Source of the DNA: Prochlorococcus sp. AG-402-P18
GTDB lineage: Bacteria; Cyanobacteriota; Cyanobacteriia; PCC-6307; Cyanobiaceae
DNA: 64,000 nucleotides
Direction: 5' to 3'
Assembly: GCA_003216275.1 (NCBI GenBank)
Contig: QCJC01000001.1
Coordinates: forward strand, 1 to 64,000
Shown here: piece after piece, positions 1,124 to 24,191 of the stretch
Position numbering within the stretch: position 1 is the stretch's first letter
Layout of the letters: each line of letters opens with the position of its first letter
Notes under the pieces: generated by a model
Database searches by the model: none
What the model was told of the DNA's origin: nothing
Seen by the model: the letters and a program-made list of their open reading frames with translations, nothing else
Position numbers and translations under genes: made by a program

Positions 1124-1280
1124 ATCTAAAAATAAAGATTATTTTATATAGTCTTACAGTTAGAAGAGTGAATTTGGTTAATCAGATTTTTTATAAATTT
1201 GAGACAGACTTGGGCGAACATTCCAACCCTGACATAGCCAGGAAACTGCCTCGTGAGCAAAAATAACTATATAGACATGT

Positions 1281-1436
1281 TTACGCAATGCAATATGAGT
1301 ATGTCCTGACCTTTGATCGAACAGTGTTACTCAACTGTCGTAGCAAGGGTGATAAGCTCAGCTTATATTGGAGCCTAGAAACGGTAATAAGCGCTTTTAG
1401 AAAATCCTCTTGACTAATTGCTCTTTGACGAGCCAT
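1281..1436 (-). CDS. Possible small divergent gene upstream of csoS1 (51 aa)
   Basis: Not recognised. The ATG at 1434-1436 (minus strand) is preceded by a strong Shine-Dalgarno sequence, AGGAGGG, at 1440-1446. This is one of the best in the window and points away from csoS1. The frame encodes a basic 51-residue peptide starting MARQRAISQEDF, with a helical, leucine-rich middle. A second open frame on the same strand (1178-1330) overlaps its last 50 bases and ends in the plausible protein tail SLSQIYKKSD. A single +1 shift would join the two into a product of about 85 residues. It could be a real small gene, a decayed gene with a frameshift, or an accident in a regulatory region. Confidence 0.35.
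   Translation of the reverse strand: MARQRAISQEDFLKALITVSRLQYKLSLSPLLRQLSNTVRSKVRTYSYCIA
1352..1366. promoter_or_regulatory. Palindrome upstream of csoS1, possible LysR-type (CbbR-like) operator
   Basis: Perfect inverted repeat ATAAGCT-C-AGCTTAT, equivalently ATAAG-N5-CTTAT, centred 118 bases upstream of the csoS1 ATG. LysR-type regulators of CO2-fixation genes bind dyads of the TNA-N7/8-TNA type, and the outer arms here (ATA...TAT) fit that loosely. The palindrome also lies inside the small divergent frame, so the two readings compete. The assignment to a regulator is inference. Confidence 0.35.
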
Positions 1437-20750: not shown

Positions 20751-21815
20751 GTGATTAGTGCTGTTAATCAAATTTCATTATTGAAGCCGGACGATTGGCA
20801 TTTGCATTTGAGAGATGGGAAGATCTTAAAGGGGGTTTTGAGTTATAGCACTGATGTATTCTCTAGAGCTATAATAATGCCTAATCTTGATCCACCAATA
20901 ACAACATTAAGCCGTGCGAAAGGATATAAAGAAAGAATTGTTCAGTCGATTCCAAAAGGTGTCTCTTTTACTCCATTGATGACAGCTTATTTGACAGACG
21001 AGATGTCTTCTGATGTTTTAGAAATAGGATTTAAAGAGGGCATATTCTATGGGGCAAAACTTTATCCAGTTAATGTGACTACTAACTCTTCGTATGGTGT
21101 TACTGATCTAAATAAAATTGACAACATATTCGAGACGATGGAAAGAATCGGTATGCCATTGCTGATCCATGGAGAAGTTAGTGATGCAAATGTTGATGTT
21201 TTTGATAGAGAGGCTGTGTTTATAGAGCGTCATCTAGACCCTTTGCTGCGAAGATTTCCTTCCCTAAAAGTTGTTTTAGAGCACATTACAACTATAGATG
21301 CAATTGATTTTGTAGAGAATAGTAAAGCCACTCTTGCAGCTACAATTACACCGCATCATTTACATATCAATCGAAATGCAATGTTCCTTGGTGGATTACG
21401 CAGTGATTTTTATTGTTTACCTACTGCAAAACGTGAGACACATCGAATTGCTTTAAGGAAAGCTGCTACTAGTGGGAAACCATGCTTTTTTCTTGGAACT
21501 GATTCAGCTCCACACACTCGCCAATTCAAGGAAAGCTCATGTGGATGTGCAGGTATCTTTAATGCTCCTTTTGCGTTAGAAAGTTACTTAAAAGTTTTTG
21601 AAGAAGAGAAGGCTTTAGATAGATTTGAAGCTTTTGCTAGCAAAAATGGACCAAACTTTTACGGGCTACCAATAAATGATGAGTATATTACTTTAGTTAA
21701 AAAAGACATTGAAGTACCACAAATCTTAGATGTTGGATTGGAAGGCGATCCTAGTGATTTTGTAAAGCCATTTCATTCAGGTGAAATTCTGGAGTGGTCG
21801 GTAGTGAGAGATTAG
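20751..21815 (+). CDS. pyrC: Dihydroorotase
   Basis: Third step of pyrimidine synthesis, cyclising carbamoyl-aspartate to dihydroorotate. It has 354 residues, class II (E. coli PyrC-like). The zinc site is evident: His17 and His19 in DDWHLHLRDG, the carbamylated lysine in YGAKLYPV (Lys103), LLIHGEV, VLEHITT, and the catalytic aspartate in GTDSAPHTR. The start is GTG at 20751-20753. Two substrate-binding loops (ATITPHHL and the SCGCAGIFNAP region) are present. The gene stands alone between the antiporter and tRNA-Leu. Confidence 0.95.
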   Translation: MISAVNQISLLKPDDWHLHLRDGKILKGVLSYSTDVFSRAIIMPNLDPPITTLSRAKGYKERIVQSIPKGVSFTPLMTAYLTDEMSSDVLEIGFKEGIFYGAKLYPVNVTTNSSYGVTDLNKIDNIFETMERIGMPLLIHGEVSDANVDVFDREAVFIERHLDPLLRRFPSLKVVLEHITTIDAIDFVENSKATLAATITPHHLHINRNAMFLGGLRSDFYCLPTAKRETHRIALRKAATSGKPCFFLGTDSAPHTRQFKESSCGCAGIFNAPFALESYLKVFEEEKALDRFEAFASKNGPNFYGLPINDEYITLVKKDIEVPQILDVGLEGDPSDFVKPFHSGEILEWSVVRD

Positions 21816-21957
21816 TTGGATTGGAAAAAAATTTTTGCAAGAATTATTTAACTCTCGATAATTTAAAGAGTACTGATTCAAGCACATACGTTTACGCTAC
21901 TATGTATATGGCCTAAGCTTTAATTTAATAGATAAAGAAAATTCACTGCTATCACAG

Positions 21958-22043
21958 GGGAGTGTGGCGGAATTGGTAGACGCACCAGACTTAAAATCTG
22001 TTGGCCGCTTTTGGCCGTGGGGGTTCAAGTCCCCCCATTCCCA
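21958..22043 (+). tRNA. tRNA-Leu(UAA)
   Basis: 86-base class II tRNA. The acceptor stem pairs GGGAGTG (21958-21964) with CATTCCC (22036-22042), with discriminator A at 22043. The anticodon loop CTTAAAA contains anticodon TAA. A long variable arm (TTGGCCGCTTTTGGCCGTG) and the T-arm GGGGGTTCAAGTCCCCC are present. The 3' CCA is not encoded. There is no group I intron in the anticodon loop, although this tRNA is the classical intron site in many other cyanobacteria. The 3' end touches the start of ndhL. Confidence 0.97.
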
Positions 22044-22045
22044 TG

Positions 22046-22315
22046 ATGTTTTGTTTTTCTAAAGTGTGGTTGCTTGCTTTAGGGCTGACAGCTTCTGTTA
22101 GTCCCTTAGTTACTCTTTCTGCCTTTTTGATTTTAGGAATTATTTATTTATTGATTGTTCCTTTGGCTCTCTTCTATTGGATGAATAATAGATGGAATAT
22201 TATGGGAAAGTTTGAAAGACTATTTATTTATGGACTTGTTTTTTTATTTTTTCCTGGACTTATTTTGTTTGCACCGTTTTTAAATTTAAGAATGAATGGG
22301 CAAAAGGAGTCTTAA
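22046..22315 (+). CDS. ndhL: NAD(P)H-quinone oxidoreductase subunit L (NdhL)
   Basis: Small membrane subunit of cyanobacterial NDH-1, needed for CO2 uptake and cyclic electron flow. I identify it from [20 protein letters not shown] and the following [19 protein letters not shown], which are typical of NdhL, plus two transmembrane helices. The start is unclear. Two ATGs (22043 and 22046) sit directly on the 3' end of tRNA-Leu, with no room for a ribosome binding site outside the tRNA. A GTG at 22064 would give 83 residues, nearer the family length. It precedes the DUF3007 gene and trpA, a conserved neighbourhood. Confidence 0.88.
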
Positions 22316-22318
22316 ATT

Positions 22319-22651
22319 TTGACAAGAGCAAAGGTTTTTCAAATAGGGCTAATAGTTTTTGCTTTAGGTGGGTTTGGATATGAATTATTTCAATTACTTG
22401 GATTTGAATCTGTTTCAGCGGGTATCGCAACTCAGTCAATTTTGATTTTAATTATTTTGGTTTGGACAGCCTCTTACTTATTCAGAGTCTTTACAGGGAA
22501 TATGACTTTTATGGAACAACGCAAACGATATAGAGAGGCTTATGAACGATTGACTGATAAAAAAATCTTGGAAAAGTTGGAGTCCATGACAGAAGAAGAA
22601 AAAATTGAATTAATCAAAGCAGTTGAGGAAGAGAGTGATCAACAGATTTAA
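22319..22651 (+). CDS. DUF3007 family membrane protein
   Basis: 110-residue protein with two predicted transmembrane helices (about residues 7-25 and 38-58) followed by a cytoplasmic, charged helical tail (FMEQRKRYREAYERLTDKKILEKLESM). I recognise the cyanobacterial DUF3007 family found between ndhL and trpA. Its function is unknown; the linkage to ndhL hints at NDH-1. The start is TTG at 22319-22321 with AGGAG about 10 bases upstream at the end of ndhL. The stop of ndhL is 3 bases away, so the genes are co-transcribed. Confidence 0.82.
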   Translation: MTRAKVFQIGLIVFALGGFGYELFQLLGFESVSAGIATQSILILIILVWTASYLFRVFTGNMTFMEQRKRYREAYERLTDKKILEKLESMTEEEKIELIKAVEEESDQQI

Positions 22652-22699
22652 GTTTTAAGTTACTAAGTTTCTACTTTTTTCTACCTTTAGGTATAAAAA

Positions 22700-23536
22700 A
22701 TGATAAAAAAGAGAGATACCCAGGATGAAGAACCTTTGAAAAGTACAAATATCGGTAAATCTTTTTCCAAAATTAAAAAGGATAAAAGAATTGCATTAAT
22801 GCCATTTGTGATGGCTGGTGATCCTGATTTGGAAACTACAGCGAAAATCTTGTTGCAACTTCAAGAAAATGGAGCAGATATGATAGAGCTTGGGATTCCT
22901 TACAGCGATCCTTTGGCTGATGGACCTATTATTCAGTTAGCTGCTTCGCGAGCTCTTTCATCGGGAACATCTCCAGAAAAGGTTTTTAAAATGTTGTCTG
23001 AATTAAGAAATGATTTATTTGTACCCATAATTTTATTTACTTATTGCAATCCTCTTCTTAATGCAGGATTAGAAGAGTTTTGTTTGGAAGCTTCTAAAGT
23101 AGGTGTGTCAGGTCTAGTTGTACCTGATCTTCCTTTGGAGGAAGCAGAAAAATTATCAAAAATTGCAGAATCAAAAGATATTGATTTGATCTTGTTAGTT
23201 GCACCTACTACGCCAATGGATCGCATGAGAAAAATTGCTGAAACTTCTAATGGGTTTACTTATCTAGTTAGTGTTACTGGAGTAACGGGTGAAAGGTCTT
23301 CACTAGAGGATAATGTTGAGAATCTGGTTAGACAACTAAAGTCTTCTTCCTCTAGTCCTGTCGCTGTAGGTTTTGGAATTTCCGATGCTAAACATATTCA
23401 AGAAGTACGAAGATGGGGCGCTGATGGAGCAATTGTTGGGAGTGCTTTAGTTAAAAGAATAGCTAATGCAACTTACAGCAAGAAAGTTGAAGAGGCCGCC
23501 TCTTTTTGTAGAGAACTACGCATTGCAACTGATTAG
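22700..23536 (+). CDS. trpA: Tryptophan synthase alpha subunit
   Basis: Cleaves indole-3-glycerol phosphate to indole and glyceraldehyde-3-phosphate, passing indole to TrpB. It has 278 residues with an N-terminal lysine-rich extension of about 20. The TIM barrel shows [10 protein letters not shown], the catalytic pair Glu63 ([10 protein letters not shown]) and Asp74 ([10 protein letters not shown]), and the phosphate-binding loops [20 protein letters not shown] and GAIVGSALV. trpB is not in this window. It appears to be the last gene of the ndhL-DUF3007-trpA run and is followed by a 385-base AT-rich spacer. Confidence 0.95.
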
Positions 23537-23921
23537 TATTTTCTGTTTTAATATTATACATTTACCTTAAATACTTTATAGCTTAATTTTAAGCATGCAA
23601 AAAATTCTATAGTTAATAGTTCTCTATAAAATCAACTTTTGATTTAGGAGAAGCTCTATAAACTATAAACTATTTATAGCACTTTTACTTCTAGATTGTC
23701 TATTAAAAACTTTAGAATTTAGTTCCCTTATCGATTTCTCTTGATTTGTCTTCTTTCTCAAGATTAATTGGCTTGCTGAAGAAGTTCTTTACCTTTGATA
23801 GGATATTATTGAAAATTGCTTAGGATATATAAAAATTAAACTTATTTAAAAAATTAGCAATTGTTATAGTGATTATACTATTATTAAAGTGGAAAATTTA
23901 TTGATAATTTAAATCGAAATT
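23537..23921. other. AT-rich intergenic region between trpA and the YciI-like gene
   Basis: No gene with a standard start was found. Short AT-rich repeats around 23620-23690 (CTATAAACTATAAACTATTTATAG) could form weak stems. On the minus strand, 23712-23819 is a 35-codon open frame without an ATG/GTG/TTG start and with strikingly protein-like codons (ends EIDKGTKF). It is treated separately as a finding. I see no rRNA, tRNA or terminator with a clear G/C stem. Confidence 0.6.
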
Positions 23922-24191
23922 ATGGAAAAATTTATCCTTTGGGGTTCTTATTGTGAAGATGTTCTTGAAAAGAGAACTCCTTTTCGCGAGGAGCATCTTA
24001 AAAGACTTTCTGAACTCAAAGCTAAAGGCATAATAGTAACTTTAGGCCCAACAAAATGTAATAAGTTTGTTTTTGGTATCTTTAATGGCGTCGATATTGA
24101 ATATATAAGATCTCTTGTTAAAGAAGATATCTATTGGAAGGAAAGAATATGGACTTCGTTTGAAGTTTACTCTTGGACCCAGGCTTTTTGA
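23922..24191 (+). CDS. YciI-like protein
   Basis: 89-residue protein of the YciI-like (dimeric alpha+beta ferredoxin-like) family. Features are MEKFILWGSYCEDVLEKRTPFREEHLKRL, with the R-x-x-H element on the first helix that typically holds the conserved histidine of the family, then IIVTLGPT and KEDIYWKERIWTSFEVYSW. The biochemical role of YciI proteins is mostly undefined, with enzymes acting on small ring compounds known in a few cases. Its 3' end overlaps the convergent cytochrome gene by 25 bases. Confidence 0.75.
   Translation: MEKFILWGSYCEDVLEKRTPFREEHLKRLSELKAKGIIVTLGPTKCNKFVFGIFNGVDIEYIRSLVKEDIYWKERIWTSFEVYSWTQAF

Follow-up and report, generated by a model that had tools for sequence, protein, structure and literature searches.

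The tRNA-Leu(UAA) gene of Prochlorococcus sp. AG-402-P18 runs directly into the reading frame of ndhL, and the same junction is found in 30 of the 34 genomes of the genus in which ndhL was matched. The arrangement is probably a conserved, tight tRNA-mRNA unit with a mis-assigned start codon, in which RNase Z would make the 5' end of the ndhL mRNA and leave a 20-nt leader ahead of a GTG start codon. We give this proposal, taken as a whole, a probability of about 0.55.

The junction between tRNA-Leu(UAA) and ndhL

The stretch analysed, called the window here, comprises 64,000 nt (contig QCJC01000001.1, positions 1-64,000, of assembly GCA_003216275.1), and belongs to a draft genome of 1.85 Mb in 35 contigs. 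Near relatives of its ndhL that bear a name come from Prochlorococcus single-cell genomes, and we take the organism to belong to the group labelled 'LLI, NATL-like'. The features of the locus are as follows.

21888-21957, +, partly conserved stretch before the tRNA, likely promoter-bearing (alignment of 30 genomes)
21958-22043, +, tRNA-Leu(UAA) (ARAGORN; Rfam RF00005, 58.7 bits)
21992-21997, +, TAAAAT in the tRNA anticodon loop, a -10-like hexamer (5/6) and candidate internal promoter
22043-22045, +, first ATG, overlapping the discriminator, in 28/30 junction genomes, probably not the start
22046-22048, +, second ATG, absent in 11/30 junction genomes, probably not the start
22044-22063, +, predicted ndhL leader of 20 nt, as left by a putative RNase Z cut (20 nt in 30/30 junction genomes; codons 2-7 unconstrained)
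22064-22066, +, GTG, likely ndhL start codon (conservation in the genus and in outgroup loci)
22064-22315, +, ndhL coding region as revised, 83 aa (PF10716)
22319-22651, +, DUF3007 gene with a TTG start, 3 nt past the ndhL stop (PF11460)
22700-23536, +, trpA (PF00290)

ARAGORN and Rfam place the tRNA end at 22043, which bears out the sequence-only reading that the discriminator base, an A, is also the first base of an in-frame ndhL ATG. The next base is T, and CCA is not encoded. The second in-frame ATG had been placed 2 bases further on; it exists, but it starts 3 bases after the first, and a cut behind the discriminator would leave 2 nt ahead of it. The frame opened at 22043 ends at the stop 22313-22315 and encodes 90 residues, with the NdhL family matching residues 21-87 (PF10716, E 4.9e-28). 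The order ndhL-DUF3007-trpA, also given in that reading, agrees with three Pfam families in a row (PF10716, PF11460, PF00290). An in-frame TTG at 22001, which would open a 104-aa ORF, was rejected as a start, because it lies inside the tRNA and the frame there is open by happenstance.

The tRNA and ndhL lie on one strand with a 0-nt gap between tRNA and frame, leaving room for neither a terminator nor a promoter. A consensus scan of 21800-22400 found no terminator-like sites; its promoter matches were at chance level (2 found, 1.8 expected) and none lay within the tRNA. Leu(UAA) is represented once ('taa') among the 36 distinct tRNAs found in the draft genome, and an Rfam scan of 21500-24000 reported no group I intron in it. 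In many of the 30 genomes, inspection by eye shows a TTTACGCTA-TAT-TAAAT-like inverted repeat some 50-70 nt ahead of the tRNA (21888-21910 in the window), possibly a regulator site.

Forty-one genomes of the genus were searched, and the seven without an ndhL match are drafts at 51-90% completeness. Conservation of the zero-length junction in related strains had been proposed as a check, and the junction holds exactly as in the window in the 30 genomes counted above. Both ATGs are present in 17 of these, including the window's own genome, the first only in 11 and the second only in 2; at least one of the two is retained in all 30. Where the second ATG is missing it is replaced by ATC (7 genomes), ATA (2), ACT (1) or ACG (1). 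The distance from the tRNA end to the column of the GTG is exactly 20 nt in 30/30 genomes. The other four genomes with ndhL comprise three with a decayed tRNA before the gene and one, G011, with the tRNA 127 nt from the GTG. G011 (L115, contig C3) is labelled as the same genus, yet in a quick tree from few columns its ndhL groups with the outgroups on a long branch, for which it was left out of the rate tests; it is a possible misplacement or mixture.

The orientation of the tRNA differs among relatives. It lies on the strand opposite to ndhL at 30 loci, from Synechococcus/Cyanobium and most low-light Prochlorococcus types, and on the ndhL strand, 71-88 nt from the ATG, at 32 HL/HNLC-type loci; this spacing was computed with the ATG placed 9 codons before codon 23, a position at which L077, one of the 32, has no in-frame ATG.

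The three genomes with a decayed tRNA (G002, G010 and G030; loci L031, L022 and L025) carry recognisable remains of tRNA-Leu before an intact ndhL that has kept its GTG. They form a single clade (SH-aLRT 100) nested among the abutting genomes in a quick tree, which implies a single loss of the abutting state there. All three also carry, about 200 nt upstream and on the opposite strand, a tRNA-Leu(UAA) of very different sequence (1205-1292, minus strand, in L031). In G002, which is a single contig, 38 distinct tRNAs were read and the foreign tRNA is the only Leu(UAA). It matches the tRNA of the genus in 60 of 90 columns and that of a viral contig (L211) in 86 of 88. In the stretch 4602-5696 of L211 a phage-type integrase has the tRNA-Leu(UAA) directly behind it, probably an attachment site. 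An exact pattern retrieved 15 viral contigs, seven of which match the foreign tRNA in 85 or 86 of 88 columns, and Pelagibacter phages match it at 91-95% over 36-44 nt. Since these three genomes lost the native tRNA and still kept ndhL, tRNA-coupled expression is not essential, and any coupling is dispensable.

A further viral contig, L221, contains the exact junction string. No ndhL frame follows it and the tRNA-Leu is the contig's own, and we regard the match as a chance extension. This tRNA-Leu(UAA) of a phage-like contig (10696-10782) resembles the genus tRNA in 77 of 89 columns.

The start codon and leader of ndhL

The GTG at 22064-22066 is codon 8 of the ATG-started frame. It is GTG in 29 of the 30 junction genomes and in all three genomes with a decayed tRNA; the sole exception among the junction genomes (L019) has CTG there, with a TTG two codons before it. 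The three positions of this column changed 1, 0 and 0 times on a tree of 33 rows, the fewest of codons 1-34. The remaining valine codons of ndhL in these 33 rows are GTG in 45 of 246 cases.

The column was also followed into 31 outgroup loci, consisting of the 30 with the tRNA on the opposite strand and G011. Nine duplicate loci, L114 and L050 were removed ahead of this count, which excludes loci with the tRNA on the ndhL strand (HL/HNLC type, L109), G011 excepted. The column holds GTG in 20 of the 31 loci and ATG in one, and has no start codon in 10. Among the 21 with a start codon there, 13 have no ATG, GTG or TTG back to the upstream in-frame stop, 7 also have a start upstream, and L120 has a stop after the GTG. 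At the HL/HNLC-type loci the start is an ATG six codons downstream of the GTG column. These loci, the outgroup loci with no start in the column, L120 and the CTG of L019 speak against the GTG reading.

Codons 2-7 of the ATG-started frame show no sign of protein constraint. Their omega is 1.27 in 33 rows and 1.18 in the 30 rows without the decayed-tRNA genomes; omega is 0.78-0.80 for codons 9-22 and 0.27 for codons 23-88. Codons 2-7 differ clearly from codons 23-88 (Fisher p 2.5e-7 with and 1.5e-6 without the decayed-tRNA rows), and the contrast with codons 9-22 is weak (p 0.042, or 0.061 without those rows). Codons 2-7 have accumulated about 48 substitutions, from which about 1.0 in-frame stops would be expected, yet no row contains a stop or an indel there. 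An ATG start would also fit this lack of stops and indels together with the retention of at least one ATG.

Weighing these results, we have good confidence that translation begins at the GTG. The two ATGs are probably by-products of the tRNA end and not starts, and annotations that begin ndhL at the junction ATG are likely to be wrong in this genus. The sequence-only reading had placed a leaderless mRNA at the second ATG. That candidate was rejected, because 11 of the 30 genomes lack the ATG, omega ahead of the GTG is about 1.2-1.3, and the outgroups share the GTG column. In those 11 genomes the only ATG overlaps the discriminator and would be destroyed by an RNase Z cut, which excludes leaderless translation from the second ATG as the general mechanism.

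A leaderless mRNA starts at, or within a few nucleotides of, its start codon, and 20 nt separate the tRNA end from the conserved GTG. The ndhL mRNA is therefore most likely not leaderless, as judged from these positions, and would carry a 20-nt leader free of a Shine-Dalgarno motif. As had been claimed, no ribosome binding site fits before the ATGs, and the stretch 22044-22063 is U-rich and has no Shine-Dalgarno motif either. Such 4-mers are found ahead of 4 of 35 long ATG ORFs in the window, where shuffling gives an expectation of 2.4; with the motif so scarce, its absence at ndhL is ordinary. According to the available text of PMC5607370, Prochlorococcus may initiate translation with the help of S1 or in a leaderless manner, the latter being considered likely in MED4. 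Folding of the predicted processed fragment from 4 genomes gave no consistent structure over the starts.

A -10-like TAGATT starts 24-33 nt ahead of the GTG column in 18 of the 31 outgroup loci. With the usual spacing its position predicts a leader of roughly 12-21 nt, about the length that RNase Z would leave here. Should TAGATT be the ndhL -10 element, the leader would have been of similar length in the ancestor; alternatively, the hexamer may belong to the divergent tRNA.

Proposed cleavage behind the tRNA and its alternatives

Since the junction has no room for a promoter or a terminator, the tRNA and ndhL probably share a transcript. We infer a single transcription unit with tRNA-Leu(UAA) first, followed by ndhL, DUF3007 and perhaps trpA. 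RNase Z usually cuts after the discriminator, and the genome encodes this enzyme (TIGR02651, 368 bits, above cut-off). Given this enzyme and a tRNA gene without CCA, cleavage behind 22043 would make two ends at once: it would finish the 3' end of the tRNA, to which CCA would then be added, and form the 5' end of the ndhL mRNA at 22044. The 20-nt U-rich leader would remain, and translation would proceed from the GTG at 22064.

The main competing explanation is a promoter within the tRNA. In this case the TAAAAT at 21992-21997 would drive ndhL from about 22004, the two genes would have independent transcripts and the leader would be about 60 nt. The hexamer matches TATAAT at five of six positions, and it occupies the same place in 29 of the 30 junction genomes and is one base nearer in the other; its conservation is uninformative, as it is fixed by the sequence of the tRNA itself. 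The hexamer is gone from all three decayed tRNA copies, whose genomes retain ndhL, and the promoter scan described above has no site inside the tRNA. A precedent comes from pshcp, which lies behind tRNA-Trp in related picocyanobacteria. According to the available text of PMC4215834, some co-transcription with the tRNA was measured for this gene, a tRNA-internal promoter was favoured, and 74.9% (MIT9313) and 81.1% (WH8102) of its transcripts were assigned to the predicted promoter within tRNA-Trp. We infer that the RT-qPCR described there does not distinguish transcripts begun inside the tRNA from those cut by RNase Z at its end. The same text refers to previous work reporting that gltX and tRNA-Asp do not share a transcript. 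These two results in relatives count against the shared-transcript proposal. We consider an internal promoter at ndhL unlikely.

We also think it rather improbable that translation starts at the ATG 22046, or at the ATG 22043 on uncut RNA, giving NdhL an N-terminal extension of 7-8 residues; with the latter start, each RNA molecule could serve either as tRNA or as mRNA, depending on the cut. The retained ATGs, the intact stretch between them and the GTG, and the leaderless translation considered likely in MED4 speak for such a start. The second ATG is missing in 11 and the first in 2 of the 30 genomes, however, the omega of about 1.2-1.3 argues against a translated extension, and so do the 13 outgroup loci in which the GTG column holds the first possible start of the frame. 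Plain genome compaction, finally, would give the junction no function, with most of the ndhL mRNA stemming from upstream read-through and being inactivated or cut elsewhere (e.g. by RNase E). The genome is small and has further tight tRNA-ORF junctions, and ndhL outlived the loss of the tRNA in three genomes. A spacing of exactly 20 nt in every junction genome, against 71-88 nt from tRNA to ATG at the HL/HNLC-type loci, makes this explanation very unlikely.

Other tRNA-led genes and related systems

The ndhL arrangement is not unique; it is one of several tRNA-led genes in this lineage. In the genome of the window organism 36 distinct tRNAs were read (37 family matches), and behind six of these an ORF of at least 70 aa starts on the same strand within 30 nt. 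The distances below, and those in other genomes, are measured from the ARAGORN tRNA end and are possibly off by a base.

tRNA-Leu(CAA)-argD: 7 nt
tRNA-Met-CNNM gene: 13 nt
tRNA-Val-115-aa gene (protein without a family match): 17 nt
tRNA-Asp-gltX: 20 nt
tRNA-Leu(UAA)-ndhL: 20 nt (to the GTG)
tRNA-Leu(AAG)-unnamed gene (protein without a family match): 26 nt

These distances vary little within the genus. At 30 loci each, the gap is 20 nt for gltX (TTG start) in 28 loci, with 19 and 16 nt in the rest, 7 nt for argD in 29 and 6 nt in one, 12-14 nt for the CNNM gene and 15-22 nt for the 115-aa gene. Among 30 genomes of other genera, all have tRNA-Asp ahead of gltX on one strand, at 16-67 nt and in 19 of them at no more than 26 nt. 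The argD locus was found in 29 of the 30; tRNA-Leu(CAA) lies within 13 nt in 15 of the 29 (exactly 7 nt in 11), at 41-176 nt in 10 and on the other strand in 3, and was not found in one. At 7 nt, argD is a better candidate than ndhL for a near-leaderless tRNA-led mRNA.

More tentatively, RNase Z may act as a routine substitute for a promoter in picocyanobacteria, at ndhL, gltX, argD, the CNNM-domain gene and the conserved 115-aa gene, with leaders of 7-22 nt that are constant for each gene. At ndhL this exchange could be dated: relatives have the promoter-like TAGATT and an oppositely oriented tRNA, and in this genus the tRNA occupies the place of the hexamer. The processing site would thus have replaced a transcription start with the leader length about unchanged, and in the sub-clade with decayed tRNAs the foreign tRNA would have freed the old one, so that ndhL had to regain a promoter. 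We hold this wider picture to be possible but on balance doubtful.

Some features of the locus have counterparts elsewhere. Escherichia coli makes tRNA-mRNA co-transcripts from thrU-tyrU-glyT-thrT-tufB and metY-nusA, in which, as at ndhL, the tRNA leads a protein gene on one strand with no terminator between. The spacers of these units are longer, and RNase E and exonucleases act on them. At ndhL the tRNA is 0 nt from the frame and 20 nt from the likely start, and one cut behind it would by itself produce the 5' end of the mRNA. In the tRNA punctuation of animal mitochondria, RNase P and RNase Z cut out the tRNAs and so set the mRNA ends, and tRNA excision would likewise define the mRNA end here; in contrast to mitochondria, one or few bacterial loci are concerned, a short leader is kept and a single cut would suffice.

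In archaeal tRNA-C/D box RNA precursors and plant tRNA-snoRNA precursors, RNase Z releases the RNA behind the tRNA (cited in the available text of PMC4247193). The same enzyme finishes the tRNA 3' end and makes the downstream 5' end, but the product is non-coding, unlike ndhL. The pairs of tRNA-Trp with pshcp and tRNA-Asp with gltX (PMC4215834) are protein genes directly behind tRNAs in the same organisms as the ndhL unit, and ndhL is not among the genes treated in the available part of that paper. No tRNA-ndhL unit is named in the literature searched, in which subscription papers were largely beyond reach.

The three genomes in which the tRNA was naturally replaced offer a ready set of strains for testing whether coupling matters. 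If the processed end is real, one cleavage would link the supply of a tRNA to that of an NDH-1 subunit, and in the most abundant marine phototrophs several housekeeping mRNAs would owe their 5' ends to RNase Z and not to promoters.
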